From the NCBI GenBank assembly GCA_030550495.1, contig JAUQPG010000015.1, positions 1-35,625 of the forward strand: DNA of 35,625 nucleotides. The letters run 5' to 3'. The translations under genes were made by a program, and so were the position numbers. Below the pieces are notes generated by a model. It was not told the origin of the DNA. It was given only the letters and a program-made list of their open reading frames with translations, and ran no database searches. The stretch is from Candidatus Bipolaricaulota bacterium (GTDB taxonomy: Bacteria > Bipolaricaulota > Bipolaricaulia > RBG-16-55-9 > DRXL01). Positions 3,900 to 18,731 of this stretch are shown in pieces. Each line of letters opens with the position of its first letter. The first letter of the stretch is position 1.

Positions 3900-5473
3900 C
3901 CTTCGATCAGCTTCTTACGAATACGCGCACTGAGAAAGTCAATGGCCATGACCGTGGGGATAATCACGACAAGACAGATCCCCACGATATCCCAAGCCCG
4001 ATACGATTGCGCTTCGTTGATGAGCGACCCAATCCCCCCAGCCCCGACAATCCCCAGAACCGAAGCGGCGCGTACGTTGATCTCGAATCGGTAGATAAAG
4101 AGCGCCAAGAATTCCGGGAGCACCTGGGGCAAGACCGCATAGCGAAAGACTTGCAACCGCGAGGCCCCAGATGATTGCAATGCTTCTACAGGCTCCTTGC
4201 GAATCTTCTCGACGATCTCAGCGTTAAATTTCCCCAACATCCCAATCGAGTGAATCGCGATCGCTAAGACCCCAGGGAGCGGCCCTGGCCCAAACGTCGC
4301 AATGAAGAAGATCGCCAAGATCAACTCGGGAAACGCACGAATGATATTGGGAATCTGCTTCATGCTTACAGCTAAGGCTACGGGAATCCCCACATAGCGC
4401 CGCGAGGCCAAAAAACCCAAGGGGAACGATAAGAGAAAGCTCAATGTCGTTCCCACTAATGCGATCTGCAAGGACTGCACCATGCGTTGTATCGCAAGCC
4501 CGAGGTACTCGGTAGCGGGTTCAGTAGTGATCGCCCAGACGAGATTGCTAAAATACCCAAAGCCTCTGCGCAACCGAGTGAGGTCGACCTCCAATGAAAT
4601 AAACGACCACACGATCAGGCCGGCAAGGATCCCCCATTCCAGCCAGCGCACCACAGGATGGAGCTTTATCCCCTGCACAAACGCATCGCGAATGCGGTTG
4701 GCTATCATATCGATGATGATGACGAGCGCAAAGATGAGGAGAGCGATCGTCAGCACTTGCGGGTAGTTACGCCATTCCATGGCCGTGGTCAGCTGCATCC
4801 CCATGCCCCCGGCGCCAACGTAGCCCATCACCGCGGAGACACGCACGTTGAGCTCAAAGACGTAAATGACGTGATCGATAAACGACGGGATGAGCTGGGG
4901 CAACACCGCGTACCGAATGACCTGAAGCTTGTTCGCGCCGACGGCTTCCACAGCCTCGATGGGTTTGGGATTGATATTGTCTGCCGACTCCGACGTGAGC
5001 TTAGCGATGATCGCGCAGGCGAAGAACGAGAGCGCCCCTACTCCAGCAGCTGGCCCAAATCCCATCGCCGCGACGAACAAGACGGCGTACAGCAAATCCG
5101 GGATGGTGCGCAAGATATTCATAAACGCGCGCACCGGCCAGTAAATGAGCGCGCTGCGCACAACCAGTTGTGACCCGAAGACGACCAGAGGCAGGGCCAT
5201 CAGCGCCCCAAGGAACGTCCCTAACGTAGCCATCTGGATGGTCTGCAGCAAGGGGCGCACAAGCTGAGGCAGCGCGGAGAAATCCGGGGGGTACATCCGC
5301 CCGAGAAGCTCAAAGAATTTCCCGCCGTATTTGAAAATAGAAGAGAGATCGAACTCGACGCCTCGCAGCGCCCACCCGTAGAGAGCAAGGAGCAAGAGCA
5401 GCCCCAGCGAAAATCCGAAGCGCCTGAGCCAGACCTCCCCGGAGAGCCTAGCCCTCTCCGTCCACTGTGCCAT
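3896..5473 (-). CDS. phnE: Phosphonate-type ABC importer permease, two PhnE domains fused in one chain
   Basis: About 525 residues, roughly twice the usual PhnE length of about 260-280. Two complete permease domains follow each other. The first spans about 75-265 and has the EAA loop EAVGANKLQVIRYAVLPQLI (about 176-195). The second spans about 325-520 and has ALQSSGASRLQVFRYAVLPQ (about 431-450). Both contain the VGAGG(M/I)G motif near the domain end. The fused chain should form the whole transmembrane channel alone instead of a PhnE dimer. The ATG at 5473 overlaps the end of phnC by 26 bp; an in-frame TTG at 5488 is an alternative. It is the last gene of a phnDCE operon. Substrate class follows the family; actual substrate (phosphonate, phosphite or phosphate ester) cannot be read from the sequence. 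Confidence 0.9.
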   Translation of the reverse strand: MAQWTERARLSGEVWLRRFGFSLGLLLLLALYGWALRGVEFDLSSIFKYGGKFFELLGRMYPPDFSALPQLVRPLLQTIQMATLGTFLGALMALPLVVFGSQLVVRSALIYWPVRAFMNILRTIPDLLYAVLFVAAMGFGPAAGVGALSFFACAIIAKLTSESADNINPKPIEAVEAVGANKLQVIRYAVLPQLIPSFIDHVIYVFELNVRVSAVMGYVGAGGMGMQLTTAMEWRNYPQVLTIALLIFALVIIIDMIANRIRDAFVQGIKLHPVVRWLEWGILAGLIVWSFISLEVDLTRLRRGFGYFSNLVWAITTEPATEYLGLAIQRMVQSLQIALVGTTLSFLLSFPLGFLASRRYVGIPVALAVSMKQIPNIIRAFPELILAIFFIATFGPGPLPGVLAIAIHSIGMLGKFNAEIVEKIRKEPVEALQSSGASRLQVFRYAVLPQVLPEFLALFIYRFEINVRAASVLGIVGAGGIGSLINEAQSYRAWDIVGICLVVIIPTVMAIDFLSARIRKKLIEG

Positions 5474-6233
5474 AGATATCTTCTTCAAAGGTCTCTCGAT
5501 TGATCGCAGAGATGGGCTTGTCGTAGATGATGCGTCCGCCCTTGAGCCCGATGATCCTCTTGCCGTACTTGAACGTCAGCACAGGATCGTGCAAATTCAC
5601 TATTGTCGTAATTCCCTCGTCTTCGTTGATCTTTTTGAAGATGTTCATGACGACGTTGGCCGTGATAGGGTCGAGCGAAGCCACGGGTTCGTCAGCGAGG
5701 ATGAGCTTGGGCCTCTGTAAGAGGGCTCGGGCGATCCCGACGCGCTGCTTCTGCCCGCCTGAGAGACGAGCAGCGCGATCGCCGTGGCGGTGCTGAGGAA
5801 TCCCTACGCGCACGAGCGCCCGATGCGCACGCTCGATCTGCTCCTTGGGAAACCGTCCGAGCAATGAGCGCAGGAACCCGACCTGTGCTAGCGAGCCCAC
5901 CAGGGTGTTAGTCAGCACCGGCAGGCGCTCGACTACGTTATACTCTTGAAAGATAAACCCAATATGGGAGCGGATCTCGCGCAGCTGCCGCCGCGAAGCT
6001 TTTAAGACGTTGATCCCGTCGAAGTAGATCTCCCCCTCGATGCGAGCGTGATCGTTCTCTGCTAAGCGATTGATCGCGCGCAAGAGCGTCGACTTCCCTG
6101 AGCCAGAGACCCCGGCGACAACGACAAATTCCCCTGGGTAGATCTCCAAGTTCACGTTATCGAGGGCCTTCACAGGATGCACCCCGGGATAGATCACGGT
6201 GAGGTTGTGCACGCGCAAGATAGGGGTAGCCAT
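5448..6233 (-). CDS. phnC: Phosphonate-type ABC importer ATPase PhnC
   Basis: 261 residues, normal for PhnC. Walker A is GVSGSGKS (41-48), the Q-loop is Q96, the signature is LSGGQKQR (157-164), Walker B is LILADE (177-182) and the switch His is H215. The family-typical PVASLDPITANVVM follows Walker B. The ATG at 6233 has AAGGTGAC directly upstream. It is separated from phnD by an 86-bp gap that contains a perfect 12-bp hairpin and overlaps phnE at its 3' end. It would power the fused PhnE channel with PhnD as receptor. Confidence 0.93.
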   Translation of the reverse strand: MATPILRVHNLTVIYPGVHPVKALDNVNLEIYPGEFVVVAGVSGSGKSTLLRAINRLAENDHARIEGEIYFDGINVLKASRRQLREIRSHIGFIFQEYNVVERLPVLTNTLVGSLAQVGFLRSLLGRFPKEQIERAHRALVRVGIPQHRHGDRAARLSGGQKQRVGIARALLQRPKLILADEPVASLDPITANVVMNIFKKINEDEGITTIVNLHDPVLTFKYGKRIIGLKGGRIIYDKPISAINRETFEEDIYGTVDGEG

Positions 6234-6319: not shown

Positions 6320-7360
6320 TTACTGATTCTCACACTTGGCGAGATTGGGCTGGATCTCCTTGGCCACAACGCGCACGGCTTCGAGGGCCTTCGCCATGTC
6401 ATAGCCCTCGGGCACGGGGACGAAATCTGTAGCATCGAGCGCGTCCTTTGCGTACTTCTTGCCCTCCTCGGTCTTCATGATCTCGACAAACGCCTGCTTG
6501 ATCGTCTCGCGCAGCTTGGCGTCTAATGCTTTAATGGCAATGATCCCATCGTTGGGGATATCGTCGCTGTAGCCGATGACGTTCACCTTGGTGCTGGGTT
6601 CGGGATCACCGGGCTTCCAGCCAAGTTCCTTCTTGGCCTGCTCGGTGTTGAGGCTCTGGCGCACGTCGTCAAACCCAACCCCAACGTCGACGTCCTTCTT
6701 GTAGACGGCAATAGCGGAAGCTAGGTGATTGGCTGCGCGGATCGTCTTGAAGTTCTTATAGTCACCTGGCAGAATCCCCAAGTCCTTGAGGGTCTTGCAG
6801 GGGAACAAGAATCCCGACGTCGACGTGGAGCTGCCACCGTAGCTAAAGCGCACCGTCGCCCCGGACTTCACCAAGCTCACGAGATCGTTCTTGGGGTCTT
6901 GATCGTCGTCCTTGAGCGCCTTAAGGGTGCTGTCTACGTGGACCATAAACTGCGAGCGATAGGTGAGGTTAGCGCCGCGCTTGGCGACGTTAATCGGGAT
7001 CGCTCCGTAGCTATCCATGACCTGGACGATCTGGAACGGCCCGAGTAACCCAATATGAATCTTCTCCGCCCCGATCGCTTCGACCGTCGCCGTGTAAGAT
7101 TCGGGGATGACCGCGCGCACGCGCTTGACCTGCGGGAAGCCGTTCTTCTGGACATAGTCTAAGACGAGCTTGGCCATCCCTTCGACTGGGGGCTGCAAGA
7201 TCGTCGCAGCGCGCGAGGGCACCATACCCACAACGAGCTCCTCAGGGATGAACCCCTGCTGCGACGCCCCGGGGAAGCCCACGACCAAGCTCCCCAACAC
7301 CCCCACGATCACCAGCAACCCCATAAGGCCAACCAGACGACGCTCACGCCACAACCGCAT
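6320..7360 (-). CDS. phnD: Phosphonate-type ABC importer substrate-binding protein PhnD
   Basis: 346 residues from the ATG at 7360, chosen because GAGGAGGT lies just upstream (about 7370-7377) and a basic N-region plus hydrophobic segment (VGLMGLLVIVGVLGSLVVGF, about 10-29) then gives a proper export signal or anchor. An in-frame start at 7456 would lie upstream of the -10 box and is rejected. Family motifs include VGMVPSR near the N-terminus, IGLLGPFQIVQV, the STSGFLFP segment (typical of ligand-binding loops in PhnD/PtxB/HtxB receptors) and GVGFDDVRQSL. No C-P lyase, phosphonatase or phosphite dehydrogenase gene is in the window, so the ligand is open. The promoter and CTATATA-type element upstream put it with the pst genes. 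Confidence 0.9.
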   Translation of the reverse strand: MRLWRERRLVGLMGLLVIVGVLGSLVVGFPGASQQGFIPEELVVGMVPSRAATILQPPVEGMAKLVLDYVQKNGFPQVKRVRAVIPESYTATVEAIGAEKIHIGLLGPFQIVQVMDSYGAIPINVAKRGANLTYRSQFMVHVDSTLKALKDDDQDPKNDLVSLVKSGATVRFSYGGSSTSTSGFLFPCKTLKDLGILPGDYKNFKTIRAANHLASAIAVYKKDVDVGVGFDDVRQSLNTEQAKKELGWKPGDPEPSTKVNVIGYSDDIPNDGIIAIKALDAKLRETIKQAFVEIMKTEEGKKYAKDALDATDFVPVPEGYDMAKALEAVRVVAKEIQPNLAKCENQ

Positions 7361-7390
7361 GATCCCTACCTCCTCGTGAAGTCTATAGTT

Positions 7391-7417
7391 GTGCGCATTT
7401 CTATATATAAAGCGCAC
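7391..7417 (-). promoter_or_regulatory. Inverted repeat in the phnD leader holding a TATATATAG phosphate-type element
   Basis: GTGCGC (7391-7396) and GCGCAC (7412-7417) form a 6-bp inverted repeat around an AT-rich centre. On the (-) strand the centre reads TATATATAGAAATG, sharing the 12-mer TATATAGAAATG with the pstC leader at 15506-15517. The element lies roughly +11 to +20 from the predicted phnD start site, a position suited to a repressor. Confidence 0.5.
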
Positions 7418-7426
7418 TTTCATTAT

Positions 7427-7456
7427 ATTATACTGCAGAGGGCACGGGGTTGTCAA
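7427..7456 (-). promoter_or_regulatory. phnD promoter, consensus -35 and -10
   Basis: On the (-) strand TTGACA (7456-7451), an 18-bp spacer and TATAAT (7432-7427). Both hexamers match consensus. Predicted transcription start is near 7420, leaving about 60 nt of leader before phnD. Confidence 0.8.
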
Positions 7457-7554
7457 ATGGGGGTTATAGCTAAGAATGTCATGTCCTGTTCAGTAAAAAT
7501 GGCCATTCGCGCCCGTAATTGTAATGCTGATCATAGTCTGAGCCCTCTCTTGTT

Positions 7555-7563
7555 TGGTATACT
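7555..7563 (+). promoter_or_regulatory. Extended -10 promoter of the amidase gene
   Basis: TGGTATACT has the TGn extension plus the -10 hexamer TATACT (7558-7563); no -35 is visible. The predicted start site is at about 7570, next to the ATG at 7571, and no ribosome site is seen, so the mRNA may be leaderless. The upstream stretch 7457-7550 shows nothing else I can name. Confidence 0.5.
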
Positions 7564-7570
7564 GTGGCCT

Positions 7571-8227
7571 ATGAAGGTCCTGACAGCAAGAGCGGTCGTC
7601 TTTTTGCTCGTTCTGGTCTGCATCTGCGGATGGGGCCAGCTCGGCCAAAGCCAAGCCAAGCGTTTCTTAGTCGTCATTGACCCTGGGCACGGCGGCTGGG
7701 ACCCCGGCGCCATCGGCTACTACGGCACCCAAGAGAAAGATATTAATCTCAATATCGCGCGCTTTCTCCGACTCCTAGGGCTGTATGACGAGGAGATCTC
7801 TATCGTGCTAACGCGTTCGGAAGACGTCTACGTCCCGCACCGCGAGCGCACGGGCTTGGCCAATCGCCTCAAAGCCGATCTCTTCGTCTCCATTCACGCC
7901 AACGCCCACCCCAAAAGCCCCGCAGCCAACGGCATCGAAGTCTTAGTCCATGAGGATACGGACTTGCCCACCTATCCCCAAAGTCGTGCGCTCGCGCTGC
8001 TATTGCAAAAGCGGCTCACACGCGCCTTGGGCGTCACCGACCGAGGGATCAAACACCAACGGCTGTTTATTCGCTGGGCCCAGATGCCCGCGGTGCTCGT
8101 CGAGACCGGGTTTCTCACCAATCCCGCGGAAGAACTAAAGCTCCGGAGCTTCCTCTACCAATGGACCGTCGCCCAAATCCTCTTCGATACGATCAAAGAG
8201 TACCTACGCCACGCGAAAGCGCGCTGA
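7571..8227 (+). CDS. N-acetylmuramoyl-L-alanine amidase (Amidase_3, AmiC/CwlM type)
   Basis: 218 residues. A signal peptide or anchor (about 5-24, ARAVVFLLVLVCICGWG) precedes an Amidase_3 domain that fills the protein. Zinc ligands are His40 in IDPGHGG, Glu55 in QEKDINLN and His109 in SIHAN; the catalytic Glu178 lies in VLVETGFLTNP. It would cleave the bond between N-acetylmuramic acid and L-alanine in the periplasm. There is no SPOR, LysM or AMIN domain. The ATG at 7571 is chosen because the hydrophobic signal follows at once and an extended -10 box ends 7 bp before it; a longer frame from 7376 lacks both. The 3' end overlaps znuB on the other strand by 24 bp. Confidence 0.9.
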   Translation: MKVLTARAVVFLLVLVCICGWGQLGQSQAKRFLVVIDPGHGGWDPGAIGYYGTQEKDINLNIARFLRLLGLYDEEISIVLTRSEDVYVPHRERTGLANRLKADLFVSIHANAHPKSPAANGIEVLVHEDTDLPTYPQSRALALLLQKRLTRALGVTDRGIKHQRLFIRWAQMPAVLVETGFLTNPAEELKLRSFLYQWTVAQILFDTIKEYLRHAKAR

Positions 8228-9022
8228 CCGCCCGAGATTCACGAGCACAAAGAGCACTAAAGCCGCCAAGACGATCGTCGGCCCCGGCTGCGTATCCAGA
8301 TAGTACGAACCGATCAGTCCCCCGTAGACCGAAAGGAGACTGCTCCCAACGGCCAAAGAGAGCGCTTGGCGAAAACTCCGTGCCAGCTGGAGCGCTGCTG
8401 CTACCGGCAGGACCAGGAGCGCCGAGATCAGTAATAACCCTACAATCTGGATCGCTGAGACCACGGTGAGCGCCGCGAGCATGACTAACAAGATATTATA
8501 GGCTCCTACGCGAATTCCCGAAGCCCGCGCCGTCTCTTCATCAAAGGTGACAAAGAAGAGTTCGCGGCGCACGACGAAGAGCACCCCTAGGACGAGCGCG
8601 GCAATGAGCGCGAGCTGCAGAATATCACGGGGCTGGAGCATGATCACGCTGCCAAAGAGATAGTTCCATAACTGATCTGTGGACCGTCGCGCCAACCGCG
8701 CCAGCACCAACCCTAATGCCAACCCCGATGAGAGAAAGATCGCAATCGCGACATCGCCCCCCAGACGCCCCCTCACGCGCAACTGTTCGATCCCGAGGGC
8801 TGCTGCTACCGAGTACGCAATCGCCATCACGATCGGGTCAACCTTGACAAGCTGCCCAAATGCCACGCCCCCAAACGCAATGTGTCCCAATCCGTCCCCA
8901 ATAAGCCCATAGCGCCGCAGGACTAAAAAGATCCCAATTGTTGGGGCTAGTACCCCGATAATTGTGCCCCCAACAAACGCTAATCTCATGAATTCGAACT
9001 CGAAGATCTCAAACATACTCAT
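8204..9022 (-). CDS. znuB: Zinc-type (Mn/Zn/Fe) ABC importer permease ZnuB
   Basis: 272 residues in the ABC-3 permease family. The N-terminal region EFEFMRLAFVGGTIIGVLAPTIGIFLVLRRYGLIGDGLGHIAFGGVAFG is typical, and about eight membrane segments follow. The ATG at 9022 is chosen because it overlaps the znuC stop as ATGA; a GTG at 9028 and an ATG at 9016 are in frame. It forms the zinc channel with ZnuC as ATPase and ZnuA as receptor. It is the last gene of the zinc operon, and its tail overlaps the amidase gene, leaving no room for a terminator. Confidence 0.9.
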   Translation of the reverse strand: MSMFEIFEFEFMRLAFVGGTIIGVLAPTIGIFLVLRRYGLIGDGLGHIAFGGVAFGQLVKVDPIVMAIAYSVAAALGIEQLRVRGRLGGDVAIAIFLSSGLALGLVLARLARRSTDQLWNYLFGSVIMLQPRDILQLALIAALVLGVLFVVRRELFFVTFDEETARASGIRVGAYNILLVMLAALTVVSAIQIVGLLLISALLVLPVAAALQLARSFRQALSLAVGSSLLSVYGGLIGSYYLDTQPGPTIVLAALVLFVLVNLGRSARFRVA

Positions 9023-9771
9023 CCCCACGAATGCTGGTGCCGCACCAGCTTCTTCCCCGCATAGACTCTTTCCAAGAGATCACTGGCTAAGCACTCTTGC
9101 GGCGTCCCGCAGAAGAGCAGCTTTCTGTTCAGACACGCGATCTTCGTCACCTGCGTCACGATCGCTTCGATGTCGTGCGAGACCAGGACGATCGTCAAGC
9201 CCTGCTCGCGATTGAGCCTCCCCAAGAGCTCATAGAACTCGGCTTCGACCTTGGGGTCGACGGCCGCTGTGGGCTCATCAAGCAGGAGAATCTCCGGCTC
9301 TTGGGCCAAGACGCGCGCGAGAAAGACGCGCTGCTGCTGCCCACCCGATAGCTCGCTGATGGGTCGGGCGCGCAGCTCCGCCACGTGTACGGCGCGCATA
9401 GCCCTCTCAACGGCTTCGGTATCGGCGCGGCTCCAGCGCCCCCAGCGCAGGCGCGGCACCCGCCCCATCCGCACGATCTCCTCGACGGACGCCGGGAAAT
9501 TGCGTTCAAAATCCCAGCTGCGCTGGCGCACATAGCCAAGTCGCGCGCGCTCACGAAAGCGCCTCAGCTCCTGGCCGAAGAGCCGGATCGTCCCCTGCTG
9601 CAGAGGAAGGAGCCCAACGATGAGCTTCAGCAGCGTCGTCTTGCCGGAGCCGTTGGGGCCAATGAGCCCGAGGACATCCCCCCGCTCAACCCGCAGGGAG
9701 ATGCCCTCGAGCACCGGCTCAACGCCATAGCTGAACCAGAGATCTTCGACCTCAATGACAGGCTCGCTCAT
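9019..9771 (-). CDS. znuC: Zinc-type ABC importer ATPase ZnuC
   Basis: 250 residues. Walker A GPNGSGKT (38-45), signature LSGGQQQR (141-148), Walker B ILLLDEPTAAVDP (from 161) and a switch His in VLVSHDI. The sequence between Walker A and the signature (VRQRSWDFERNFPASVEEIVRMGR) is typical of the Zn/Mn importer ATPases. The ATG at 9771 overlaps the znuA stop as ATGA; a GTG at 9777 is the alternative. It energises ZnuB. Confidence 0.92.
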   Translation of the reverse strand: MSEPVIEVEDLWFSYGVEPVLEGISLRVERGDVLGLIGPNGSGKTTLLKLIVGLLPLQQGTIRLFGQELRRFRERARLGYVRQRSWDFERNFPASVEEIVRMGRVPRLRWGRWSRADTEAVERAMRAVHVAELRARPISELSGGQQQRVFLARVLAQEPEILLLDEPTAAVDPKVEAEFYELLGRLNREQGLTIVLVSHDIEAIVTQVTKIACLNRKLLFCGTPQECLASDLLERVYAGKKLVRHQHSWG

Positions 9772-10652
9772 GGGCACTCCAGCCCAATTCGTAGATTTTT
9801 CAGGTTCTCTTCCATGAGCACGAGATAGTTCTTGCCGGCACGCTCTTCTTCTTCGGTGACGCTGTGCCCGGTGTTGAGCGTCAGGATCTGCGCCCCGAGC
9901 TCGCGCGCTAGGACCTCCAACGCCCTGATCTCATCGCCCTCCTCGGTGAAGATATACTTGATGCCCTTCTCCTTGCCTAGGCGAATCAGCTCGACCAGGC
10001 GCTGGGGCGTCGGCTCAGCGGGCTCCAGCCCAGAGACTGAGTGCGCGACGAGATTATAGCGCGCCGCGAAGTAATCCATAAACCGATGCGAGACGATAAA
10101 GTCTCGTAAGCGACACGCCTTCAAGCCCTCACGGATCTTGGCATCCAGGGCGTCAAGCTGAGCGTGATACTTTTGGGCGTTTGCGGTATAGATCGATCTG
10201 CCGGTGCCGTCAGCCGTTGTCAAGCCATCCTGGATGTTGCTCACCATTCCCTTGGCGAGGATCGGGTCTATCCAGACGTGAGGGTCGAACTCGAACTCTT
10301 CTTCTTCGGCCTTGCGCACGGGCAGGCCCTTCGTCGCCTCGATGACGACGAGCGTATTGCGATTCTTGACGACAGCGAGCACGCGTTCGACCCACGATTC
10401 CATCGACGCCCCGTTATATACAAAGACCTGAGCTTCTTCAATCGCCCGAATATCCGCGGGGGAAGGCTCGAAATCGTGAGGCTCCGCGCCCGCTGGCACT
10501 AAATTCTTGACTTCAACGCGATCCCCGCCGACGTTCTTGGTGAACTCATAGGGGATATAGAAGCTCGCTACAACCTTGAGCTTTGGCTGCGCCACACCCG
10601 CTGTGGACGCACCAAGCACGAGAACTGTCACGATGAGCAACCATCTCTTCAT
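9768..10652 (-). CDS. znuA: Zinc-type ABC importer receptor ZnuA (cluster A-I)
   Basis: 294 residues with an N-terminal signal peptide (about 1-21). Metal ligands visible are His59 in AEPHDFEPSP, His125 in DPHVWIDP and His189 in VSHRFMDYF. An acidic loop, AEEEEFEFD (115-123), replaces the His-rich loop of many ZnuA proteins and lies just before the second ligand. ZnuA against MntA/PsaA is chosen from the adjacent zur gene. AAGGAGGAG at about 10660 precedes the ATG. The gene follows zur after 58 bp, in which a candidate Zur box overlaps a TTGAAT/TATTTT promoter. Confidence 0.88.
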   Translation of the reverse strand: MKRWLLIVTVLVLGASTAGVAQPKLKVVASFYIPYEFTKNVGGDRVEVKNLVPAGAEPHDFEPSPADIRAIEEAQVFVYNGASMESWVERVLAVVKNRNTLVVIEATKGLPVRKAEEEEFEFDPHVWIDPILAKGMVSNIQDGLTTADGTGRSIYTANAQKYHAQLDALDAKIREGLKACRLRDFIVSHRFMDYFAARYNLVAHSVSGLEPAEPTPQRLVELIRLGKEKGIKYIFTEEGDEIRALEVLARELGAQILTLNTGHSVTEEEERAGKNYLVLMEENLKNLRIGLECP

Positions 10653-10673
10653 GGTGATCTCCTCCTTTGTTAT

Positions 10674-10703
10674 TGAAAATAGATTTCATTTAGCGGGATT
10701 CAA
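10674..10703 (-). promoter_or_regulatory. znuA promoter with candidate Zur box
   Basis: TGAAAATAGATTTCA (10674-10688, plus strand) is a 7-1-7 near-palindrome with 6 of 7 arm pairs, the layout used by Fur-family proteins. It covers a possible -10, TATTTT (10681-10676), which lies 16 bp from TTGAAT (10703-10698) on the (-) strand. A matching box lies before zur. Confidence 0.6.
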
Positions 10704-10710
10704 AAATTTT

Positions 10711-11142
10711 TTATTGGCACTTTGGGCATTGGCCGACCACCTCCAGATGATGGGATTCGATGGCAAACCCCGTGCGCGCTTGGAGCTTGCGCAGTGTGCG
10801 GTCCAGAGCACAGTCTGGAAACTCTTCGACATGGCCGCAGGTGCGGCAGATCAACTGGTGATGATGCCCTTTCTCTAAACGCACTGCAGCAAAGCTATGA
10901 CAGCGCATCTTCCCCTGATGCACCCGTTGGACTAGGTTCAGCCTCTCTAGCAAGGCCAAGGTCCGATAGACCGTGACCAAGCCCAATTTACGGTATCGCC
11001 ACCGCGCCTGACGGTGGATCTCCTCCGGCGTCCTGTGCCCCGTCTCCGAAGCCATCGTCTCCAGCACAGCACGCCGTGCCTTGGTCAATCTATATCCCCT
11101 GGCTCTTAGGTGATCTTCCCAGATCTTTGCGAGAGTACTCAT
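10711..11142 (-). CDS. zur: Fur-family regulator, probably zinc-responsive Zur
   Basis: 143 residues. A winged helix (about 1-85, with the recognition region GLVTVYRTLALLERLNL) is followed by a dimerisation domain with KGHHHQLICRTCG. Two CxxC pairs, C99/C102 and C139/C142, form the structural zinc site of Zur and PerR-type proteins; the histidines at 93-95 belong to the regulatory metal site. The ATG at 11142 is preceded by AAGAAGG; an in-frame start at 11202 lies beyond the promoter and is rejected. Zur is chosen over Fur or PerR because the gene is followed directly by znuACB. A TGAAA-N5-TTTCA box over its own start site suggests autoregulation. Confidence 0.85.
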   Translation of the reverse strand: MSTLAKIWEDHLRARGYRLTKARRAVLETMASETGHRTPEEIHRQARWRYRKLGLVTVYRTLALLERLNLVQRVHQGKMRCHSFAAVRLEKGHHHQLICRTCGHVEEFPDCALDRTLRKLQARTGFAIESHHLEVVGQCPKCQ

Positions 11143-11156
11143 GCCTTCTTTCTTAC

Positions 11157-11171
11157 TGAAAAATCTTTTCA
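11157..11171 (-). promoter_or_regulatory. Candidate Zur box at the zur start site
   Basis: TGAAAAATCTTTTCA (plus strand) is a 7-1-7 near-palindrome. It shares the TGAAA-N5-TTTCA frame with the box before znuA and covers the predicted zur start site near 11167. Confidence 0.6.
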
Positions 11172-11173
11172 TT

Positions 11174-11202
11174 ATTATAATCGCCCGCCCTGGCGCTGTC
11201 AA
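11174..11202 (-). promoter_or_regulatory. zur promoter, perfect -35 and -10 consensus
   Basis: On the (-) strand TTGACA (11202-11197), a 17-bp spacer and TATAAT (11179-11174). Its -35 box lies 3 bp from the -35 box of the divergent AbrB-PhoU promoter. Confidence 0.85.
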
Positions 11203-11205
11203 GCC

Positions 11206-11234
11206 TTGACATCTATATAGCTATATATTACAAT
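11206..11234 (+). promoter_or_regulatory. Promoter of the AbrB-PhoU gene with CTATATAG element inside the spacer
   Basis: TTGACA (11206-11211), 17-bp spacer, TACAAT (11229-11234). The spacer holds CTATATAG (11213-11220) directly followed by CTATATAT (11221-11228), a doubled copy of the element found at pstS and pstC. A protein bound there would block RNA polymerase, which suggests negative autoregulation. Confidence 0.75.
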
Positions 11235-11264
11235 ACCCACCAATCACAATAGACGGGAGGGATT

Positions 11265-12254
11265 ATGGAGATCCGGAGAGTGCAGATCACTGGCGGGGCG
11301 ACCTTCATGGTCACTCTGCCCAAAGACTGGGCCGAAGCGCAAAAGCTCTATGCCGGTGCCGAGATCGAACTCCACCCCCATAGTCCCGATCTGCTGATTC
11401 TGCGCCCACACCGCGATTCCCACTTGACCCGCGGCGTCCTCAAGCTCAACGCCCAAACCGGCGATACCCTCATGCGCGCCTTCATCTCCATGTACGTCGC
11501 AGGATTTGACATCATTGAAGTCCAAGGGGAGCGCATCACCCCCGACCAGCGCCAGACGATCCGCAAGATTACCCAAGCCCTCATCGGCCCGGAGATCATG
11601 GAAGAATCACGAGACTCTATCGTCATTCATAATTTGCTCAATCTCTCTGAGCTCTCCGCCCCCAAAACGCTCCAACGCATCTTCTTGATGGTGCACGACA
11701 TGTTCACCGATGCCGTCCGCGCCCTCGTTGACCACGACGCTGAACTTGCCAACGATATCGCCGCGCGCGACGAGGACGTCGATCGCCTCTATTTGATGCT
11801 CTACAGGCAGTTCCGCATCGCACTGCGTGATCCCTTGGCCGAAGAGGCCTTGGGCATCAGCCGCGTCAAGCTCTTCGATACCCACACCGTGGCGCGGCAG
11901 CTAGAGCGTATCGCGGACCATGCGGTCAAGATTGCTTATGTGACTACGGTGATCAAAGTCCCTGCTCCCTCTAAGGTCGTCGATGCCCTGCATAAGGGCG
12001 GGGAACACGTGGCAAATTTGCTCCAAGAGTCTATGGATGCGTTCCGCTTGCCCGACCCAGATCTCGCCAGCCAGGTGATCGACAAGGCCTTAGGGGTGGA
12101 GGCACGCCTCATGAAGGCCGTCAAACTCTTGTGGGATCTTGCCCCGCAAGAAGCTCAGCTCATCGGCATTGCGTTTGATAGCATCGGGCGCGTGAAAGAC
12201 TATTCGATCAACATCGCCGAGACGGCCCTCAACACCGCCGTTCCTATGCCCTAG
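11265..12254 (+). CDS. AbrB-PhoU fusion, putative DNA-binding phosphate uptake regulator
   Basis: 329 residues. The N-terminus (about 1-48: RRVQITGG near the start, TLPKDW, then a Gly-Ala-Glu-Ile turn and LLILRP) is a SpoVT-AbrB swapped-hairpin DNA-binding domain. A linker region (50-125) is followed by two PhoU helical bundles with the metal-site motifs ARDEDVD (167-173) plus RQLERIADHAVKIA (211-224), and FDSIGRVKDYSINIAE (304-319). This architecture is best known from archaeal 'phosphate uptake regulators'. GGGAGGG at about 11255-11261 precedes the ATG. PhoU proteins sense the state of the Pst transporter; the AbrB domain would let this one act on DNA directly. Its doubled CTATATA element and the same element before pstS, pstC and phnD make it the best candidate for the binding protein. 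A separate plain PhoU is encoded at 18732. Confidence 0.85.
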   Translation: MEIRRVQITGGATFMVTLPKDWAEAQKLYAGAEIELHPHSPDLLILRPHRDSHLTRGVLKLNAQTGDTLMRAFISMYVAGFDIIEVQGERITPDQRQTIRKITQALIGPEIMEESRDSIVIHNLLNLSELSAPKTLQRIFLMVHDMFTDAVRALVDHDAELANDIAARDEDVDRLYLMLYRQFRIALRDPLAEEALGISRVKLFDTHTVARQLERIADHAVKIAYVTTVIKVPAPSKVVDALHKGGEHVANLLQESMDAFRLPDPDLASQVIDKALGVEARLMKAVKLLWDLAPQEAQLIGIAFDSIGRVKDYSINIAETALNTAVPMP

Positions 12255-12338
12255 CGAGCTGGCTCGTAGAGATTTTGCAAAGACCCCTGGCTTGAGCAAG
12301 GTCCACGCGATGACGCCAGAGTTTGACCCCATCGAGCA

Positions 12339-13313
12339 CTACGACGGGGATGTCATACAGTTTTCATCGACGATCTGGAAGCGATACGGCTCGACTTGGC
12401 GGACGTGCCCTTGGCTCTCCAGAACTTCAAGATGGGCATACACTTCGCCGGCTCCCAGCAGCACATGATAGTCTTTCAGCCTGCCAAAGAGCTTTTGAGC
12501 GATCTCAAACGCCGTAAGCGCCTGGCCATCGCTCAAGATCTTGAGGATCCGCTCAGCCCGCTCGCGATGGTGCTTAAGGATCTTGGTGATGCGCGCACGC
12601 GGATCGGTCCAGGGCTGACCATGCCCCGGATAGATCTCTAAGCGTTCGGCGTTGGGCAGCTCAAGAATCTTTTGGAGCGAAGTGAGAAATTTTTCGAGAT
12701 GGCCGCCAGTCGTGACGTCGGTGGCCCCGACGTTCGAGGTGTACGTCGGCAAGAGATGATCCCCTGTGAAGAGCCTCTGCCCCACCAGAAAACAGGCGGA
12801 CCCTTGGGTATGGCCAGGGGTGTGTAGGACGCGAACCTCCAAGTCGCCAAAGCGCAACACCTGGCCGTCACTGAGCTTCTTAGCAGTGGGGACGGAACGC
12901 CCCAGCCCAGCAAACTGCGCGCGAAAGTGTCCTACTTGTAAGATAACTTCTTCCGGGATGCCCCAGCGGCGCATCGCATCTAGATAGAGCTCGGAGACTT
13001 CCTCGTGACGCTCTTCAAAGAGAGCGACGTCTACCCAATCGTCGCTGTGCACATAGACTCTTGCTCCAGACTCCTCCTGGATAGCGCGCGCCAGCCCACT
13101 ATGATCGACATGCTTATGAGTCAATAGCACGCCAGCGATATCTTGGAGGGAGCAGCCGTACTGATTCAATGTGCGCTGCAAGAGACTGAGAGCCTCAGCG
13201 GTGCCGATCCCCGTGTCGATCAGTAGAGGGGGGCTGTGCGAGCCATGGATGAGGAACGCATTGGTTGGGCTCTCAAAATACGGATTCGGGATGGCAATCT
13301 GATGTACCTCCAT
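12339..13313 (-). CDS. Metallo-beta-lactamase-fold hydrolase with C-terminal winged helix (LACTB2/glyoxalase II-like)
   Basis: 324 residues. The binuclear metal site THKHVDH gives His66, His68, Asp70 and His71, followed by HTPGHTQGS, FTGDHLLP and the final YPGHGQPW. Residues from about 255 on (RAERILKILSDGQALTAFEIAQKLFG and the rest) form a winged-helix-like tail typical of the LACTB2 group. The substrate is unknown; thioesters and nucleic-acid ends are both precedented in the family. No ribosome site precedes the ATG at 13313, and a -10 box ends about 9 bp upstream, so the transcript may be leaderless. The 84 bp between its stop and the AbrB-PhoU stop hold no clear terminator. Confidence 0.85.
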   Translation of the reverse strand: MEVHQIAIPNPYFESPTNAFLIHGSHSPPLLIDTGIGTAEALSLLQRTLNQYGCSLQDIAGVLLTHKHVDHSGLARAIQEESGARVYVHSDDWVDVALFEERHEEVSELYLDAMRRWGIPEEVILQVGHFRAQFAGLGRSVPTAKKLSDGQVLRFGDLEVRVLHTPGHTQGSACFLVGQRLFTGDHLLPTYTSNVGATDVTTGGHLEKFLTSLQKILELPNAERLEIYPGHGQPWTDPRARITKILKHHRERAERILKILSDGQALTAFEIAQKLFGRLKDYHVLLGAGEVYAHLEVLESQGHVRQVEPYRFQIVDENCMTSPS

Positions 13314-13322
13314 AGTGGGCTT

Positions 13323-13351
13323 ATCTTAGCCCAGGGCTCTAGAGCGTGCAA
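13323..13351 (-). promoter_or_regulatory. Promoter of the metallo-hydrolase gene
   Basis: On the (-) strand TTGCAC (13351-13346), 17-bp spacer, TAAGAT (13328-13323). The predicted start is almost at the ATG. A TTGACG hexamer facing the other way (13356-13361), 17 bp before TACGAT (13379-13384), could be the -35 of the HAD gene. Confidence 0.5.
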
Positions 13352-13373
13352 GCTCTTGACGGGAGGTGTTCTA

Positions 13374-14135
13374 TTGCGTACGATACACCCTGTGCGCGTG
13401 AGAGTGATCTTTTTCGATATGGATGGCACGCTGGTATGGGTGCCTGGGGGCAGCCAAGCTGATTGGTTTGCGCAGCGCCTCGAACAGCTCGGGCTGGCCA
13501 TAGATCGCGAGCGGCTTCCCCAGGCGTACCAGACAGCTCAAGAGCGCTGGCAGCGCGAGATCCGTCCGCGCTTGGGATTCAGCACCGAATCGTTTGTAGA
13601 ATGGAACAAGCTGATATTGACGGAGCTGGGGCTCAACGGCGAGCTCACCCAGCTCGCTGCGGAGATCCAAAGTTATTGGGAGACTCCTACAGATGAGCTC
13701 TTCCCTGATGTGCCGGAAGTGCTAGAAAAGCTGCGTCGGCGCGGGATCGAACTGGGGATCGTTTCGCATCGCCCCCTTGTGGGGATCGAGCGCTCGTTAG
13801 AAAAACACAGACTAAAAAAATTCTTTCGTTGGCTTGCCAGCCCAGACTCGACGGGGATCGCGCATGGGAAGCTTGACCGAGCTTTTTGGGCTTCTCTGCT
13901 AAAGCAAGCGGGCGTGTCCCCTCACGAAGCGCTGCACGTCGGCGATGATTTTGAGACGGACATTCGCGGAGCGCGGCGCGCGGGGTTGCACGCGGTCTGG
14001 ATCGAGCGCCCACAACTACAAGATCGGCTCTTTCCCGGACGACTTGGGGTTGGAGCCCCTCAAGACGCGCCTCCGAAAGAACGCCCGTGCGCGCGGGTGA
14101 GAGATCTGCACGAACTTACTGAACTGATCGAGTAA
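13374..14135 (+). CDS. HAD-superfamily hydrolase (phosphoglycolate phosphatase-like)
   Basis: About 253 residues. HAD motif I is FFDMDGTL with the nucleophile Asp15 and Asp17, motif II is the Ser in GIVSHRP, the conserved Lys lies near LKKFF or GKLDRAF, and motif IV is HVGDDFETDIRGARRAG. An alpha-helical cap follows motif I, as in subfamily I phosphatases. The start is uncertain: TTG at 13374 has GGGAGG at good spacing, while GTG at 13392 or 13398 would give the most usual HAD N-terminus and would be leaderless from TTGACG-17-TACGAT. A longer frame from 13236 would overlap the divergent gene and is rejected. The substrate is not known. Confidence 0.82.
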   Translation: MRTIHPVRVRVIFFDMDGTLVWVPGGSQADWFAQRLEQLGLAIDRERLPQAYQTAQERWQREIRPRLGFSTESFVEWNKLILTELGLNGELTQLAAEIQSYWETPTDELFPDVPEVLEKLRRRGIELGIVSHRPLVGIERSLEKHRLKKFFRWLASPDSTGIAHGKLDRAFWASLLKQAGVSPHEALHVGDDFETDIRGARRAGLHAVWIERPQLQDRLFPGRLGVGAPQDAPPKERPCARVRDLHELTELIE

Positions 14136-14158
14136 TTTTCACTCCCAAGGCCCCCGAC

Positions 14159-14187
14159 TTGACAAACCTTCCCCGGATCTGTATACT
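14159..14187 (+). promoter_or_regulatory. pstS promoter
   Basis: TTGACA (14159-14164), 17-bp spacer, TATACT (14182-14187). The predicted start is near 14194, two bases before the palindromic CTATATAG element. Confidence 0.82.
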
Positions 14188-14195
14188 TATGGTGC

Positions 14196-14209
14196 GATCT
14201 ATATAGATC
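14196..14209. promoter_or_regulatory. Perfect 14-bp palindrome with CTATATAG core at the pstS start site
   Basis: GATCTATATAGATC is a perfect palindrome at about +2 to +15 of the predicted pstS transcript. The core recurs before the AbrB-PhoU gene and pstC, and as a variant before phnD. Position and symmetry suit an operator for a dimeric repressor. Confidence 0.65.
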
Positions 14210-14240
14210 GTGATCAAACTATACTGAGAGGAGGAATAGT

Positions 14241-15389
14241 ATGAATTTTAGTGCGTCTCTTCTAAGACGCGTCGCGTTCGTCGCTCTGCTGGCCGTCGGG
14301 TCGGTCGTCTTGTCGTCGTTCGCTCAACCAGGGGCTCCGAAGGACTCTAAGAATATCTTGGCAGACGGCTCCAGCACCGTCGCCCCTATCACCAAGGCGA
14401 TGGCTGAGGAGTTTAAGAAGGTCCGCCCTGACGTCAACGTGACCGTCGCGGTGAGCGGCACCTCTGGAGGCTTTCGGCGCTTCGTCACCGGCGAGACCGA
14501 CATCAGCAACGCCTCGCGCGCTATCAAACAATCCGAGATCGAGGCCGCGCCCAAAAACGGCGTCGAATATATTGAGCTATTAATCGCCCTGGACGGCCTG
14601 ACCGTCGCCGTCAGTAATAAGACCCAGATCTTCGGCACTGCGCCAGTATGCTTGACCGTCGGGGAGCTAGAGCTGCTGTGGGCTAAAGAAGCCGAAAAAT
14701 TCATCACGAAGTGGAATCAAGTCCGCAGCACCTTCCCCAATGCCAATATCACGCTCTCCGGTGCGGCCGAAACTTCGGGGACATTTGACTTCTTCACGTC
14801 AGCGATCAATGGGAAAGAGGGCGACTCCCGACAAGATTATTTCGGCACCGAGGAAGATCAGCTCTTAGCGCAACAGACGGGCGCCGATCCCTTCGCACTG
14901 ACGTACTTTGGGTATAACTTCTTCGTGCATAATACGCAATTCGTGCAGGCCGTCGCGATTGACCCGCGCCGCGAGCTGATCAGCGCCCCTGAAGACGTGC
15001 TGAAAGAGATCAACGCGCGGCGTGCCAAGAGCGGCAAGAAGCCCTTGGAGAACAAGGGCGGCGAATGCAAGGGCATCCTGCCCACTGTCGATACGATCTT
15101 GGGGTTCGTCTATCAGCCCTTGAGCCGCCCGCTTTTTATCTACGTCAATAAGAAGAGCGGCGAGCGCCCCGCCGTTGAAGAGTTCATCAACTTCTATCTC
15201 GACGAGAGCCGCCTAGGCAATCAGCAGTTTATGCTCAATAAAGCTGGGTATCTGCCCGCTCCCCGCGAGGTGCGCGAAGAAGCGCGCACTTGTTGGAAGA
15301 AGCGCATCACCGGCACGGCTTTCGGCGGCAACTACTCCGGGCTGTCGCTCCAAGATATCCGCAAGAAGTACGGCGAACACTGCAAGTGA
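14241..15389 (+). CDS. pstS: Phosphate ABC importer receptor PstS
   Basis: 382 residues with a signal peptide (about 1-28). Phosphate-binding motifs are DGSSTVAP (42-49), SGTSGGFRRF (72-81) and SRAI (92-95), plus AAETSGTFDFF further on. The ending KKYGEHCK and the insertion PLENKGGECKG add a few Cys residues that could form disulphides in the periplasm. GAGGAGG (about 14228-14234) precedes the ATG. It is transcribed from its own promoter carrying the palindromic CTATATAG element, and is separated from pstC by a strong stem-loop and a second promoter, so it is probably made in excess over the membrane subunits. Confidence 0.95.
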   Translation: MNFSASLLRRVAFVALLAVGSVVLSSFAQPGAPKDSKNILADGSSTVAPITKAMAEEFKKVRPDVNVTVAVSGTSGGFRRFVTGETDISNASRAIKQSEIEAAPKNGVEYIELLIALDGLTVAVSNKTQIFGTAPVCLTVGELELLWAKEAEKFITKWNQVRSTFPNANITLSGAAETSGTFDFFTSAINGKEGDSRQDYFGTEEDQLLAQQTGADPFALTYFGYNFFVHNTQFVQAVAIDPRRELISAPEDVLKEINARRAKSGKKPLENKGGECKGILPTVDTILGFVYQPLSRPLFIYVNKKSGERPAVEEFINFYLDESRLGNQQFMLNKAGYLPAPREVREEARTCWKKRITGTAFGGNYSGLSLQDIRKKYGEHCK

Positions 15390-15403
15390 GCCAGCCCCTC
15401 CCA

Positions 15404-15442
15404 CCGAGCCTCTCAGGGGAACCCCGACCCTGGGAGGCTCGG
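15404..15442 (+). terminator. Strong intercistronic stem-loop after pstS
   Basis: CCGAGCCTCTCAGGG (15404-15418) pairs with CCCTGGGAGGCTCGG (15428-15442): 15 pairs with one wobble and a 9-nt loop. No T-run follows. As in the phnD-phnC gap, a GC-rich hairpin closes the receptor gene; it may protect the pstS mRNA 3' end or partly terminate. Confidence 0.7.
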
Positions 15443-15461
15443 GGCCCCTCCCTGGACTCAT

Positions 15462-15491
15462 TTGACTTCCCGTGCCCCATGGTGCTATAAT
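15462..15491 (+). promoter_or_regulatory. pstC promoter
   Basis: TTGACT (15462-15467), 18-bp spacer, TATAAT (15486-15491). The predicted start is near 15498, giving the pstCAB-phoU-arsC unit its own transcript. Confidence 0.75.
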
Positions 15492-15504
15492 TTCATGCGA
15501 AAAA

Positions 15505-15517
15505 CTATATAGAAATG
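15505..15517 (+). promoter_or_regulatory. CTATATAG element in the pstC leader
   Basis: CTATATAG (15505-15512) followed by AAATG, at about +7 to +15 of the predicted transcript. The string TATATAGAAATG is shared exactly with the phnD leader on the other strand. Confidence 0.6.
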
Positions 15518-16453
15518 ATTAGAACCATGAAGAAGTCGACGGCATCCCAGCCCGCCTTACACGCCCCCCCGGGACGGTATCTCAAGGAACGGCTCATTCA
15601 AGGTGTGCTCTTCGCCTGTGCGTTTCTCGCCGTTGTCGTCACGGCAATCACTATTTGGATCTTTCTCTCTGGCTCCGGAATCTTCTTTGCTAAAGTCTCG
15701 CTGTGGGAGTTTTTGGGAGGTACACGCTGGGCACCAACTGATATCTCGACCCCATCCTACGGCGCTTTGCCCTTAATCATGGGCACGTTGATCATCACCG
15801 GGATCGCTCTCTTGGTCGCCCTGCCCATCGGGCTGCTCAGCGCGATCTATCTGAGTGAATTTGCGTCGGAGCGCGTGCGCAAGATAGCGAAACCCATCTT
15901 GGAGATTCTCGCAGGGATTCCCACGGTCGTCTACGGGTATTTCGCGCTGCTCTTTGTGACGCCGCTGTTGCGCTCGGTGCTCCCCGATATTCAGTTCTGG
16001 AACGCGCTCAGCGCGGGGATTGTCTTGGGGATCGCGATCATCCCCTTGGTCTCGTCGTTGAGTGAGGATGTGATCTACGCGGTGCCTCGGTCGTTGCGCG
16101 AGGGCGCCTATGCCCTCGGAGCGACGCAATACGAGACGATCCGTCACGTGGTGCTGCCCGCGGCGCTGTCGGGCATCGCTGCAGCGTTCATCTTAGCCAT
16201 GTCGCGGGCCATCGGCGAGACGATGATCGTCGCTATTGCCGCTGGGCGCGTGCCGACCTGGCCCCCAGATCTGCTCAAGCCCTTAGAGACTCTCACCGTG
16301 CACATCGTCAACGTCGCCACAGGAGACGCTGAAGCCGGTGCGTTCATCTGGGCCACGATCTTCGCCATCGGCGCGCTGCTCTTCGCGATCACCCTGCTCT
16401 TAAATATTCTCAGTTATTGGATCGTGCGTCGCTTCCGGGAGCAATACGAATGA
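15515..16453 (+). CDS. pstC: Phosphate ABC importer permease PstC
   Basis: 312 residues, normal length. Six membrane segments, starting at about 28-52; the EAA loop reads EGAYALGATQYETIRHVVLPAALSGI, and SRAIGETMIVAIAAG follows, both typical of PstC. Two in-frame starts exist, ATG 15515 and ATG 15527, neither with a good ribosome site; the first lies within the CTATATAG element region and only about 17 nt from the predicted start site. The stop overlaps the pstA start as ATGA. It forms the channel with PstA. Confidence 0.92.
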   Translation: MIRTMKKSTASQPALHAPPGRYLKERLIQGVLFACAFLAVVVTAITIWIFLSGSGIFFAKVSLWEFLGGTRWAPTDISTPSYGALPLIMGTLIITGIALLVALPIGLLSAIYLSEFASERVRKIAKPILEILAGIPTVVYGYFALLFVTPLLRSVLPDIQFWNALSAGIVLGIAIIPLVSSLSEDVIYAVPRSLREGAYALGATQYETIRHVVLPAALSGIAAAFILAMSRAIGETMIVAIAAGRVPTWPPDLLKPLETLTVHIVNVATGDAEAGAFIWATIFAIGALLFAITLLLNILSYWIVRRFREQYE

Positions 16454-17892
16454 GCGCTCAGACTCTCCACATAGAACGACGTCAATTAGTGTGGCGTAAG
16501 ACGAAGAGCACGTTTTTCGGCTCGATCACTTTTAGCACGATCCTCATCAGCCTAGCCCTGTTGGTCGCCCTGATCGTCTATATTCTCATCAATGCGCGCC
16601 CGCTGATGGCGATGCGCGCGGCTTCTCGAGCGGGCTTAGTGCTCTCAACGATGGTCATCCAATGGGATGCCAAGAACCTTCCCTATGTCATCATCACGGA
16701 TTTTATCCCCGAGAGCGCCGCGGCCCGTGCAGGCATTAGCGAATTCGATGCGATCATTCACATTGGCCCTGAGAGCGTCTACCGCTCGGCGCAGGTCTGG
16801 GAGGCTATAGCAAGATTGCCCAGCGATGCACTGCCCATCGGCTGGATCTCCGGTGATCCCTCAAAAATATTCGGCGATCTTCTTCCCCAGATGGACCCGC
16901 AGACGGGCGCGCTGCGCGTCGTCATAGACTATCTGCCTGAAGAGAGTCTTGGTTTTCAAGCTGGGCTGCGCCCCGGCGATATTGTAACGCACATCGAAGA
17001 TATCCCCGTTACAGGGGCGCGCCAAGCGTGGGAAGCGCTCATCGTCGCCGCGCAGAGAAGAGCGCAGCCTGGCCCGCTCACAGTGCAGATCGAGCGCGAC
17101 GGGGAGCTTTTCACTATCGCGCTTCCTGCAGAGCAGACAGCACAAATCCCCATCCAGCGCAGTTGGTGGCGCGCCATCTGGGACTTCCTGACGAGCTATG
17201 ACTCCAATTCCCCAGAGAAAGCTGGCCTAGCGAGCGCCATCGTCGGCTCGCTCTATTTAGTCGGCCTGACGGCGCTCTTCGCGCTGCCTTTGGGAGTTGG
17301 CGCCGCTATATACTTAGAAGAGTACGCTCGAAGAAATTGGCTCACCGAGCTGATTCAGCTCTTGATCGCCAATCTTGCCGGAGTCCCCTCCGTCATTTAC
17401 GGGATTATCGGGTTAGAGATCTTGGCGCGGGCGCTCAAGATGGACCGCGTGCTCATTACGGGATCACTGACGATGACGCTCTTGATCTTGCCCATGGTGA
17501 TCATTGCTGCTCGCGAAGCGCTGCGCACTATTCCCGATTCGATCCGACACGCTGCTTATGCTGTGGGGGCGACGCGCTGGCAGGTGGTGCGCTCCCACGT
17601 GCTGCCCTATGCCCTGCCGGGGATCTTGACGGGCTTGATCATCTCGCTTTCGCGGGCGATGGGCGAGGCAGCCTTGCTTATCTTACTGGGGGCCTTTCAG
17701 TATCTGACGTTTCTGCCCACCTTGGGCAGCTACTTCACAGTCGTTCCCATTCAGATTTTTACGTGGATCGGAGAAGCAAAGGATGGCTTTGCTAACATTG
17801 CTGCCGCAGCAATCATAGTGCTCCTGACGATCCTCTTAGCGATGAACGCCCTCGCGATCTTCTTGCGCATGAAATTCCAGAGGAGGTGGTAG
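16450..17892 (+). CDS. pstA: Phosphate ABC importer permease PstA with a large PDZ-like insertion
   Basis: 480 residues against about 280-300 for usual PstA. After the first helix (about 25-48) a stretch of about 190 residues intervenes before the permease core. Within it, residues about 78-130 (DFIPESAAARAGISEFDAII) and 157-228 (DYLPEESLGFQAGLRPGDIV, then IERDGELFTIALPA) both have the PDZ pattern: S-A/G-A-x-x-A-G-[IL]-x-x-x-D-x-I. The core then follows from about 258, with the EAA loop RHAAYAVGATRWQVVRSHVLPYALPGI (366-392) and SRAMGEAALLILLGA. By topology the insert lies outside the cytoplasmic membrane. The ATG at 16450 overlaps pstC. The permease identity is firm; the PDZ reading is strong by motif; its role (docking PstS, proteolysis control or sensing) is speculation. 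Confidence 0.88.
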   Translation: MSAQTLHIERRQLVWRKTKSTFFGSITFSTILISLALLVALIVYILINARPLMAMRAASRAGLVLSTMVIQWDAKNLPYVIITDFIPESAAARAGISEFDAIIHIGPESVYRSAQVWEAIARLPSDALPIGWISGDPSKIFGDLLPQMDPQTGALRVVIDYLPEESLGFQAGLRPGDIVTHIEDIPVTGARQAWEALIVAAQRRAQPGPLTVQIERDGELFTIALPAEQTAQIPIQRSWWRAIWDFLTSYDSNSPEKAGLASAIVGSLYLVGLTALFALPLGVGAAIYLEEYARRNWLTELIQLLIANLAGVPSVIYGIIGLEILARALKMDRVLITGSLTMTLLILPMVIIAAREALRTIPDSIRHAAYAVGATRWQVVRSHVLPYALPGILTGLIISLSRAMGEAALLILLGAFQYLTFLPTLGSYFTVVPIQIFTWIGEAKDGFANIAAAAIIVLLTILLAMNALAIFLRMKFQRRW

Positions 17893-18717: not shown

Positions 18718-18731
18718 AATATCTCTCAACT

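Follow-up and report, generated by a model that had tools for sequence, protein, structure and literature searches.

A predicted one-component phosphate switch in Bipolaricaulota: AbrB-PhoU and a palindromic site at the abrB-phoU, pst and phn promoters

The window analyzed here, a stretch of 35,625 nucleotides from a Bipolaricaulota metagenome-assembled genome, encodes pst and phn genes together with AbrB-PhoU, a regulator of 329 residues (11265-12254, forward strand) that combines an AbrB-type DNA-binding domain with PhoU. The relatives identified by name, at 79-93% protein identity, all belong to Candidatus Bipolaricaulota. We consider it very likely that AbrB-PhoU is a one-component regulator that represses both its own gene and the phosphate regulon (pst, phn), acting through the palindromic site CTATATAG. 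The sites themselves, their positions and conservation, their near-exclusive placement in distant relatives, the fold of the protein and its co-occurrence with pst all point this way at the level of sequence and model, and from them we infer that AbrB-PhoU is the binder, that it represses and that phosphate is the signal.

An exact search of the window found three copies of CTATATAG, with positions 11213, 14199, and 15505, just as a preliminary description of this DNA had reported, and all of them lie at phosphate promoters, namely those of abrB-phoU, pstS, and pstC. Shuffling of the window gave an expectation of 0.33 copies, and none of 100 shuffles produced three. A scan for sigma-70-like promoters identified TTGACA-17-TACAAT before abrB-phoU (11206-11234, forward strand), TTGACA-17-TATACT before pstS (14159-14187, forward), TTGACT-18-TATAAT before pstC (15462-15491, forward), and TTGACA-18-TATAAT before phnD (7427-7456, reverse). 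These are four of the five best promoters in the region, the fifth being that of a divergent fur-family gene. As the preliminary description had claimed, a site falls within each of the four near-consensus footprints: in the promoter spacer at abrB-phoU, and at about +6, +8, and +13 at pstS, pstC, and phnD, respectively.

At abrB-phoU, the putative operator (11213-11220, forward strand) lies between the -35 and -10 boxes and occupies the same place in the relatives G049, G050, G051, G053, and G054. It is doubled, as had been noted before, by the near copy CTATATAT directly 3' of it (11221-11228, forward). The pstS copy (14199-14206) forms the center of a perfect palindrome; this had been described as 14 base pairs (bp) long but extends over 16 bp, CGATCTATATAGATCG, at 14195-14210 on the forward strand, corresponding to about +2 to +17 of pstS. 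The pstC site (15505-15512, forward) stands just past the promoter and is also found at pstC in G053, G049, G051, G052, G054, G056, and G057. The minus-strand leader of phnD holds TTTATATATAG, with the variant ATATATAG (7408-7401), which matches seven of the eight letters and is flanked by the dyad arms GTGCGC/GCGCAC. This variant and the 12-mer TATATAGAAATG, common to the phnD and pstC leaders, had likewise been recognized earlier. The 12-mer was dropped, since relatives do not keep it in this form; what they conserve is the core TATATAG. At phnD, TTTATATATAGAA is kept in G053 and G050, where the arms (7385-7425 in the window, minus strand) differ yet remain largely complementary, so that they may belong either to a longer palindromic operator or to an mRNA hairpin.

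The spacing between site and promoter is maintained across families. Relatives are cited here by G number, with family (f) and genus (g) labels for their lineages; the phylum set comprises 100 genomes, the source genome is G000 (family f1), and G005 is a closed genome of 1.70 Mb from family f6. At pstS, the site starts 11 bp past the -10 box in f1 (G000, G053, G051, G056, and G048), in f5 (G061), and in f6 (G005, with the distance read directly from the sequence rather than from the scan), and a one-mismatch site stands at the same distance in G058 of f4. The distance is likewise 11 bp at abrB-phoU in f4; at abrB-phoU in f1 the site is located in the promoter spacer, and in G005 it overlaps the -10 region. 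Because the sites hold fixed positions inside the polymerase footprint, they suggest a repressor. AbrB-family proteins can activate or repress, which would also accommodate AbrB-PhoU as an activator at CTATATAG, or a response to phosphate of the opposite sign. However, near-consensus promoters should have no need of an activator, and with a site in their spacer or at about +6 to +20 they would be blocked; we therefore regard activation as decidedly unlikely.

Counted across the source genome, CTATATAG is near background overall, and within its own genus it is not specific by itself. G000 (1.63 Mb) contains 21 copies, 18 of them outside the window, against 15 of the reversed control, and most copies beyond the phosphate promoters sit within genes. 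The chance of three promoter copies in this genome is nevertheless about 8e-8 (binomial, target of 3 x 215 bp). As the counts of 21 and 15 make specificity in the source genome unconvincing, we turned to comparative tests in relatives. In G005, only three copies occur in the whole genome, a pair upstream of pstS and a single one upstream of abrB-phoU (chance about 5e-11, binomial). Similarly, all three copies in both G009 and G014 and three of four in G006 belong to the abrB-phoU/pst locus, and in eight further genomes (G008, G011, G013, G015, G021, G022, G030, and G059) the sole genomic copy is found there. The genome-wide phosphate specificity proposed as a check on the site thus holds in distant relatives and only in part in the source genome, while conservation before phosphate genes was found in several families.

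We also compared all 256 palindromic 8-mers without bias, counting each in 80 genomes over the 200 bp upstream of abrB-phoU, pstS, and pstC. CTATATAG ranked first in each of the three sets separately; taken together, the sets contain 48 copies where 0.32 were expected, and palindromes of the same composition reach 1-4. When the genus of the source genome was left out, CTATATAG was still first at abrB-phoU and pstS, but at pstC it did no more than tie with others. Two of 376 control upstream windows carry the site, and both of their open reading frames precede pstC or overlap pstS, so these windows are apparently leaders of pstS genes missed by the cut-off. An accidental position of an AT-rich 8-mer near promoters, which the similar counts of site and control in the source genome might suggest, is refuted by the conservation in other families and deserves practically no credence.

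The protein itself consists of an AbrB/MazE DNA-binding domain (residues ~1-50), a small alpha/beta middle domain (~56-123), and two PhoU repeats (132-229 and 236-325). The N-terminus passes the PF04014 profile with 25.8 bits (cut-off 24.7; orthologues reach up to 40.4 bits), and the C-terminal part passes PF01895 with 83.3 bits (cut-off 23.5), whereas the full-length profile of classical stand-alone PhoU, TIGR02135, is not reached (80.7 against 130.25 bits). The AlphaFold model of the monomer, with a mean predicted local distance difference test score of 92.4, shows two three-helix bundles (132-155/159-188/200-229 and 236-261/265-291/294-325). Using Foldseek, we found that the C-terminal part matches the PhoU structure 4q25 (E 7.8e-7, TMt 0.78) and is also close to 1t72 and 2i0m, and that the N-terminal part of the monomer model matches MazE 1ub4_C weakly (E 0.6, probability 1.00). 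Among 54 sequences, archaeal ones included, G11, P19, K20, and W22 of the AbrB part and R168/D169/D173 and E214/R215/D218/H219 of the PhoU part are invariant; the latter include the E/DxxxD motifs of the PhoU family, putative metal sites, as D169xxxD173 and E214xxxD218. The middle domain (residues 56-123; 11430-11633 in the window) has no Pfam match; its modeled fold, beta-alpha-beta-alpha-beta-beta, might serve dimerization or ligand binding.

AbrB-PhoU orthologues are present in 78 of the 100 genomes of the phylum, and the G005 protein is 36% identical to that of the window. Of the 51 genomes whose PstC passes the cut-off, 49 encode AbrB-PhoU, compared to 29 of the 49 others, and the two PstC genomes without it are 58% and 61% complete. 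In many genomes and families, abrB-phoU adjoins pst, either divergently or in line, and the abrB-phoU promoter bears the site, in some genomes as its sole copy. In archaea, abrB-phoU is divergent from pst in four of five loci examined. Methanogen loci (L208-L211) contain, between pstS and the divergent abrB-phoU, sequences such as CTATATAAACTATAG or TATATAGAGTATATAG that are related to the bacterial site; CTATATAAACTATAG exemplifies the CTATA/TATAG repeats of these regions.

Several observations weigh against AbrB-PhoU acting at CTATATAG as proposed. The exact site is present in only 21 of 75 abrB-phoU upstream regions, although 46 of the 75 contain it when one mismatch is allowed, where 3.9 would be expected. 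More than half of the genera with AbrB-PhoU lack the exact site upstream of the gene, and the site is missing from f7 and from some genera of f6 and f9. Plausibly, CTATATTGATATAC in f7 and TCTATAGA in f9, the latter being the second palindrome in the ranking, are drifted forms of the operator. Within the genus of the source genome, three intergenic copies found in more than one species stand at non-phosphate genes, two of them before hdrC-like genes and one in a cooC/hypF region, so that CTATATAG is not confined to phosphate genes there. Moreover, the genomes are related to one another, and the counts are therefore not independent events or samples; the source genome is only about 92% complete; and the same genomes encode other AbrB/MazE proteins (PF04014 has four matches in G000 and three in G005, AbrB-PhoU included).

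The copies before the two hdrC-like genes are kept at 20-40 bp from the genes (L004:1501 and L013:1501 on source contigs C14 and C57; L215, L216, and L223-L226), in the leader context GACTYTATAGARCTATATAGRAA in three genomes and TCTATATAGNNGATTGTAGA in about five, which suggests either non-phosphate targets or a second regulator using the same site. The intergenic copy between cooC-like and hypF genes is located at L015:1501 in G000 and L191:1508 in G053. At 915-965, L013 also carries a dispersed REP-like repeat, roughly 45 bp in length and present in both orientations, for which one related genome gives as many as 38 matches. In f7 (L068-L073), another conserved block, roughly TATATTRGTATAATTYTTCTATATTGATATACAT, stands upstream of abrB-phoU in place of CTATATAG.

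Because other AbrB/MazE proteins are present and AbrB-PhoU is named as the binder on grounds of linkage and co-occurrence, its connection to CTATATAG is strong but circumstantial, and we call it the likely binder. The site could instead be the operator of another protein, a stand-alone AbrB/MazE protein or the neighboring Fur-family regulator, with abrB-phoU merely as one more target. The further PF04014 proteins would provide candidates, and in genus g1 fur and abrB-phoU diverge from a shared intergenic region that contains the doubled site. Only in f1, however, is the Fur-family gene a neighbor, whereas the site tracks abrB-phoU and pst across families, and AbrB-PhoU is the sole such protein linked to pst. 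In g13, AbrB-PhoU is missing from three genomes, G004, G007, and G012; their copy numbers of the site are 0, 0, and 1, and in none of them does PstC pass the cut-off, which fits both views. On balance, we judge a different binder to be unlikely.

A two-component system of the PhoB/PhoR type, with CTATATAG as a core-promoter or start-site element, would be another way to explain these promoters. The source genome does encode OmpR-family regulators with partner kinases, as well as other histidine kinases, but none beside pst. With curated profiles, PhoB was found above the cut-off in 0 of 100 genomes and PhoR in 0 of 4, both cut-offs being strict (passed by just 2 of 12 matching control genomes and by just 1 control, respectively); absence of PhoB/PhoR is therefore likely rather than proved. 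MtrA and BaeR are the best matches of the two regulators nearest to PhoB, BaeS is that of their partner kinases, and TorS that of the other kinases; the only kinase of the source genome that matches PhoR over its full length adjoins a single-domain receiver and a CRP-like regulator. In the window, matches to Pho boxes of the Escherichia coli and Bacillus types are as frequent as chance predicts. The pst and abrB-phoU promoters have none; one Bacillus-type match with three mismatches overlaps the -35 region of phnD. A core element should furthermore recur at many promoters, and none of the 374 clear control windows carries CTATATAG. Two-component control is thus very improbable. These searches for phoB/phoR and Pho boxes had been suggested in the preliminary description, and its view of AbrB-PhoU as a one-protein switch in place of a two-component system gains support from their outcome, from the conserved sites and from the co-occurrence with PstC.

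We propose that, when phosphate is plentiful, AbrB-PhoU would dimerize through pairing of its AbrB-type domains for DNA binding and occupy CTATATAG at abrB-phoU, pstS, and pstC as well as the presumably weaker site at phnD. With its site in the promoter spacer or inside the first 20 bases of the transcript, the bound protein would stand in the way of RNA polymerase. Under phosphate shortage, the PhoU part would change state, either directly or via Pst/PhoU, and the repressor would be released. The window additionally encodes PhoU as a protein of its own, so the signal may pass from Pst to AbrB-PhoU by an indirect route.

The predicted targets form two groups of genes. On the forward strand, pstS (14241-15389; phosphate-binding protein, TIGR02136) is followed by pstC (15515-16453; permease, TIGR02138), pstA (16450-17892; permease with an N-terminal extension, assigned by gene order and cross-matches), pstB (17899-18717; ATPase, orthologues 63-95% identical), and the stand-alone phoU (18723-19433; TIGR02135), the NCBIfam profiles being matched above their cut-offs. 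On the reverse strand are phnD (6320-7360; phosphonate/phosphite/phosphate-binding protein, TIGR01098 above cut-off), phnC (5448-6233; ATPase, TIGR02315 above cut-off), and phnE (3896-5488; TIGR01097 in two stretches), which encodes two PhnE permease domains in tandem within one long protein. The Fur-family gene (10714-11202) is divergent from abrB-phoU, with which it shares the intergenic region; it lies beside znuABC and probably encodes a zinc regulator. Box-like sequences, TGAAAAATCTTTTCA and GAAAATAGATTTCATTT, are found at this gene at 10660-10700.

If correct, these predictions would provide a phosphate-control circuit for a phylum without a well-studied cultured model, in the form of a one-protein switch. 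PhoU in model bacteria acts through PhoR and membrane proteins, and it has long been asked how it transmits the phosphate state. In AbrB-PhoU, the PhoU domain seems to be coupled directly to a DNA-binding domain for which a 16-bp site is defined, and effects of ligands, metals or Pst on PhoU could then be read out as DNA binding in vitro. It is conceivable, though we suggest it only tentatively, that control of a phosphate regulon by a single DNA-binding PhoU through a CTATATAG-type operator is of ancient origin, an alternative to PhoBR common to Bipolaricaulota and methanogens, given the CTATATAAACTATAG-like repeats of the latter, and that it spread to the energy-metabolism genes hdrC and cooC in one bacterial genus.

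Compared to the PhoR/PhoB regulon of E. coli, the system described here has the same kind of targets, PstSCAB, PhoU and phn genes, and a PhoU domain tied to the phosphate state, but it differs in lacking PhoB/PhoR above cut-offs and Pho boxes and in site positions that are repressor-like rather than activator-like. With the AbrB/MazE/SpoVT swapped-hairpin family (PF04014), AbrB-PhoU shares an N-terminal domain above the cut-off, the weak match to MazE 1ub4 and a palindromic AT-rich site, whereas its fusion to a middle domain and PhoU sets it apart, and it is neither part of a toxin-antitoxin pair nor a global transition-state regulator. From the PhoU family (TIGR02135, PF01895), it has the two three-helix repeats and a fold close to 4q25, 1t72, and 2i0m, with about 130 additional residues at the N-terminus. 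In the open-access literature, we found no work joining an AbrB-PhoU fusion with an operator and no earlier account of the bacterial system, its operator, the fixed position or the genome-wide specificity; subscription papers were outside this search. DNA-binding PhoU regulators of the PhoU2 type have already been predicted in haloarchaea, as stated for Haloferax volcanii HVO_2374 in PMC6560208, which also mentions that pho-boxes in the Halobacterium salinarum pst promoters are required for pst upregulation (citing Furtwangler et al. 2010). AbrB-PhoU resembles these proteins in combining an N-terminal DNA-binding domain with PhoU and in its synteny with pst. The haloarchaeal system works with archaeal promoters, whereas that of Bipolaricaulota has sigma-70-type promoters, an 8-bp palindrome at a fixed position and genome-wide specificity. 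Since DNA-binding PhoU proteins had been predicted in haloarchaea, the principle is not new; the Bipolaricaulota system is a new form of it.

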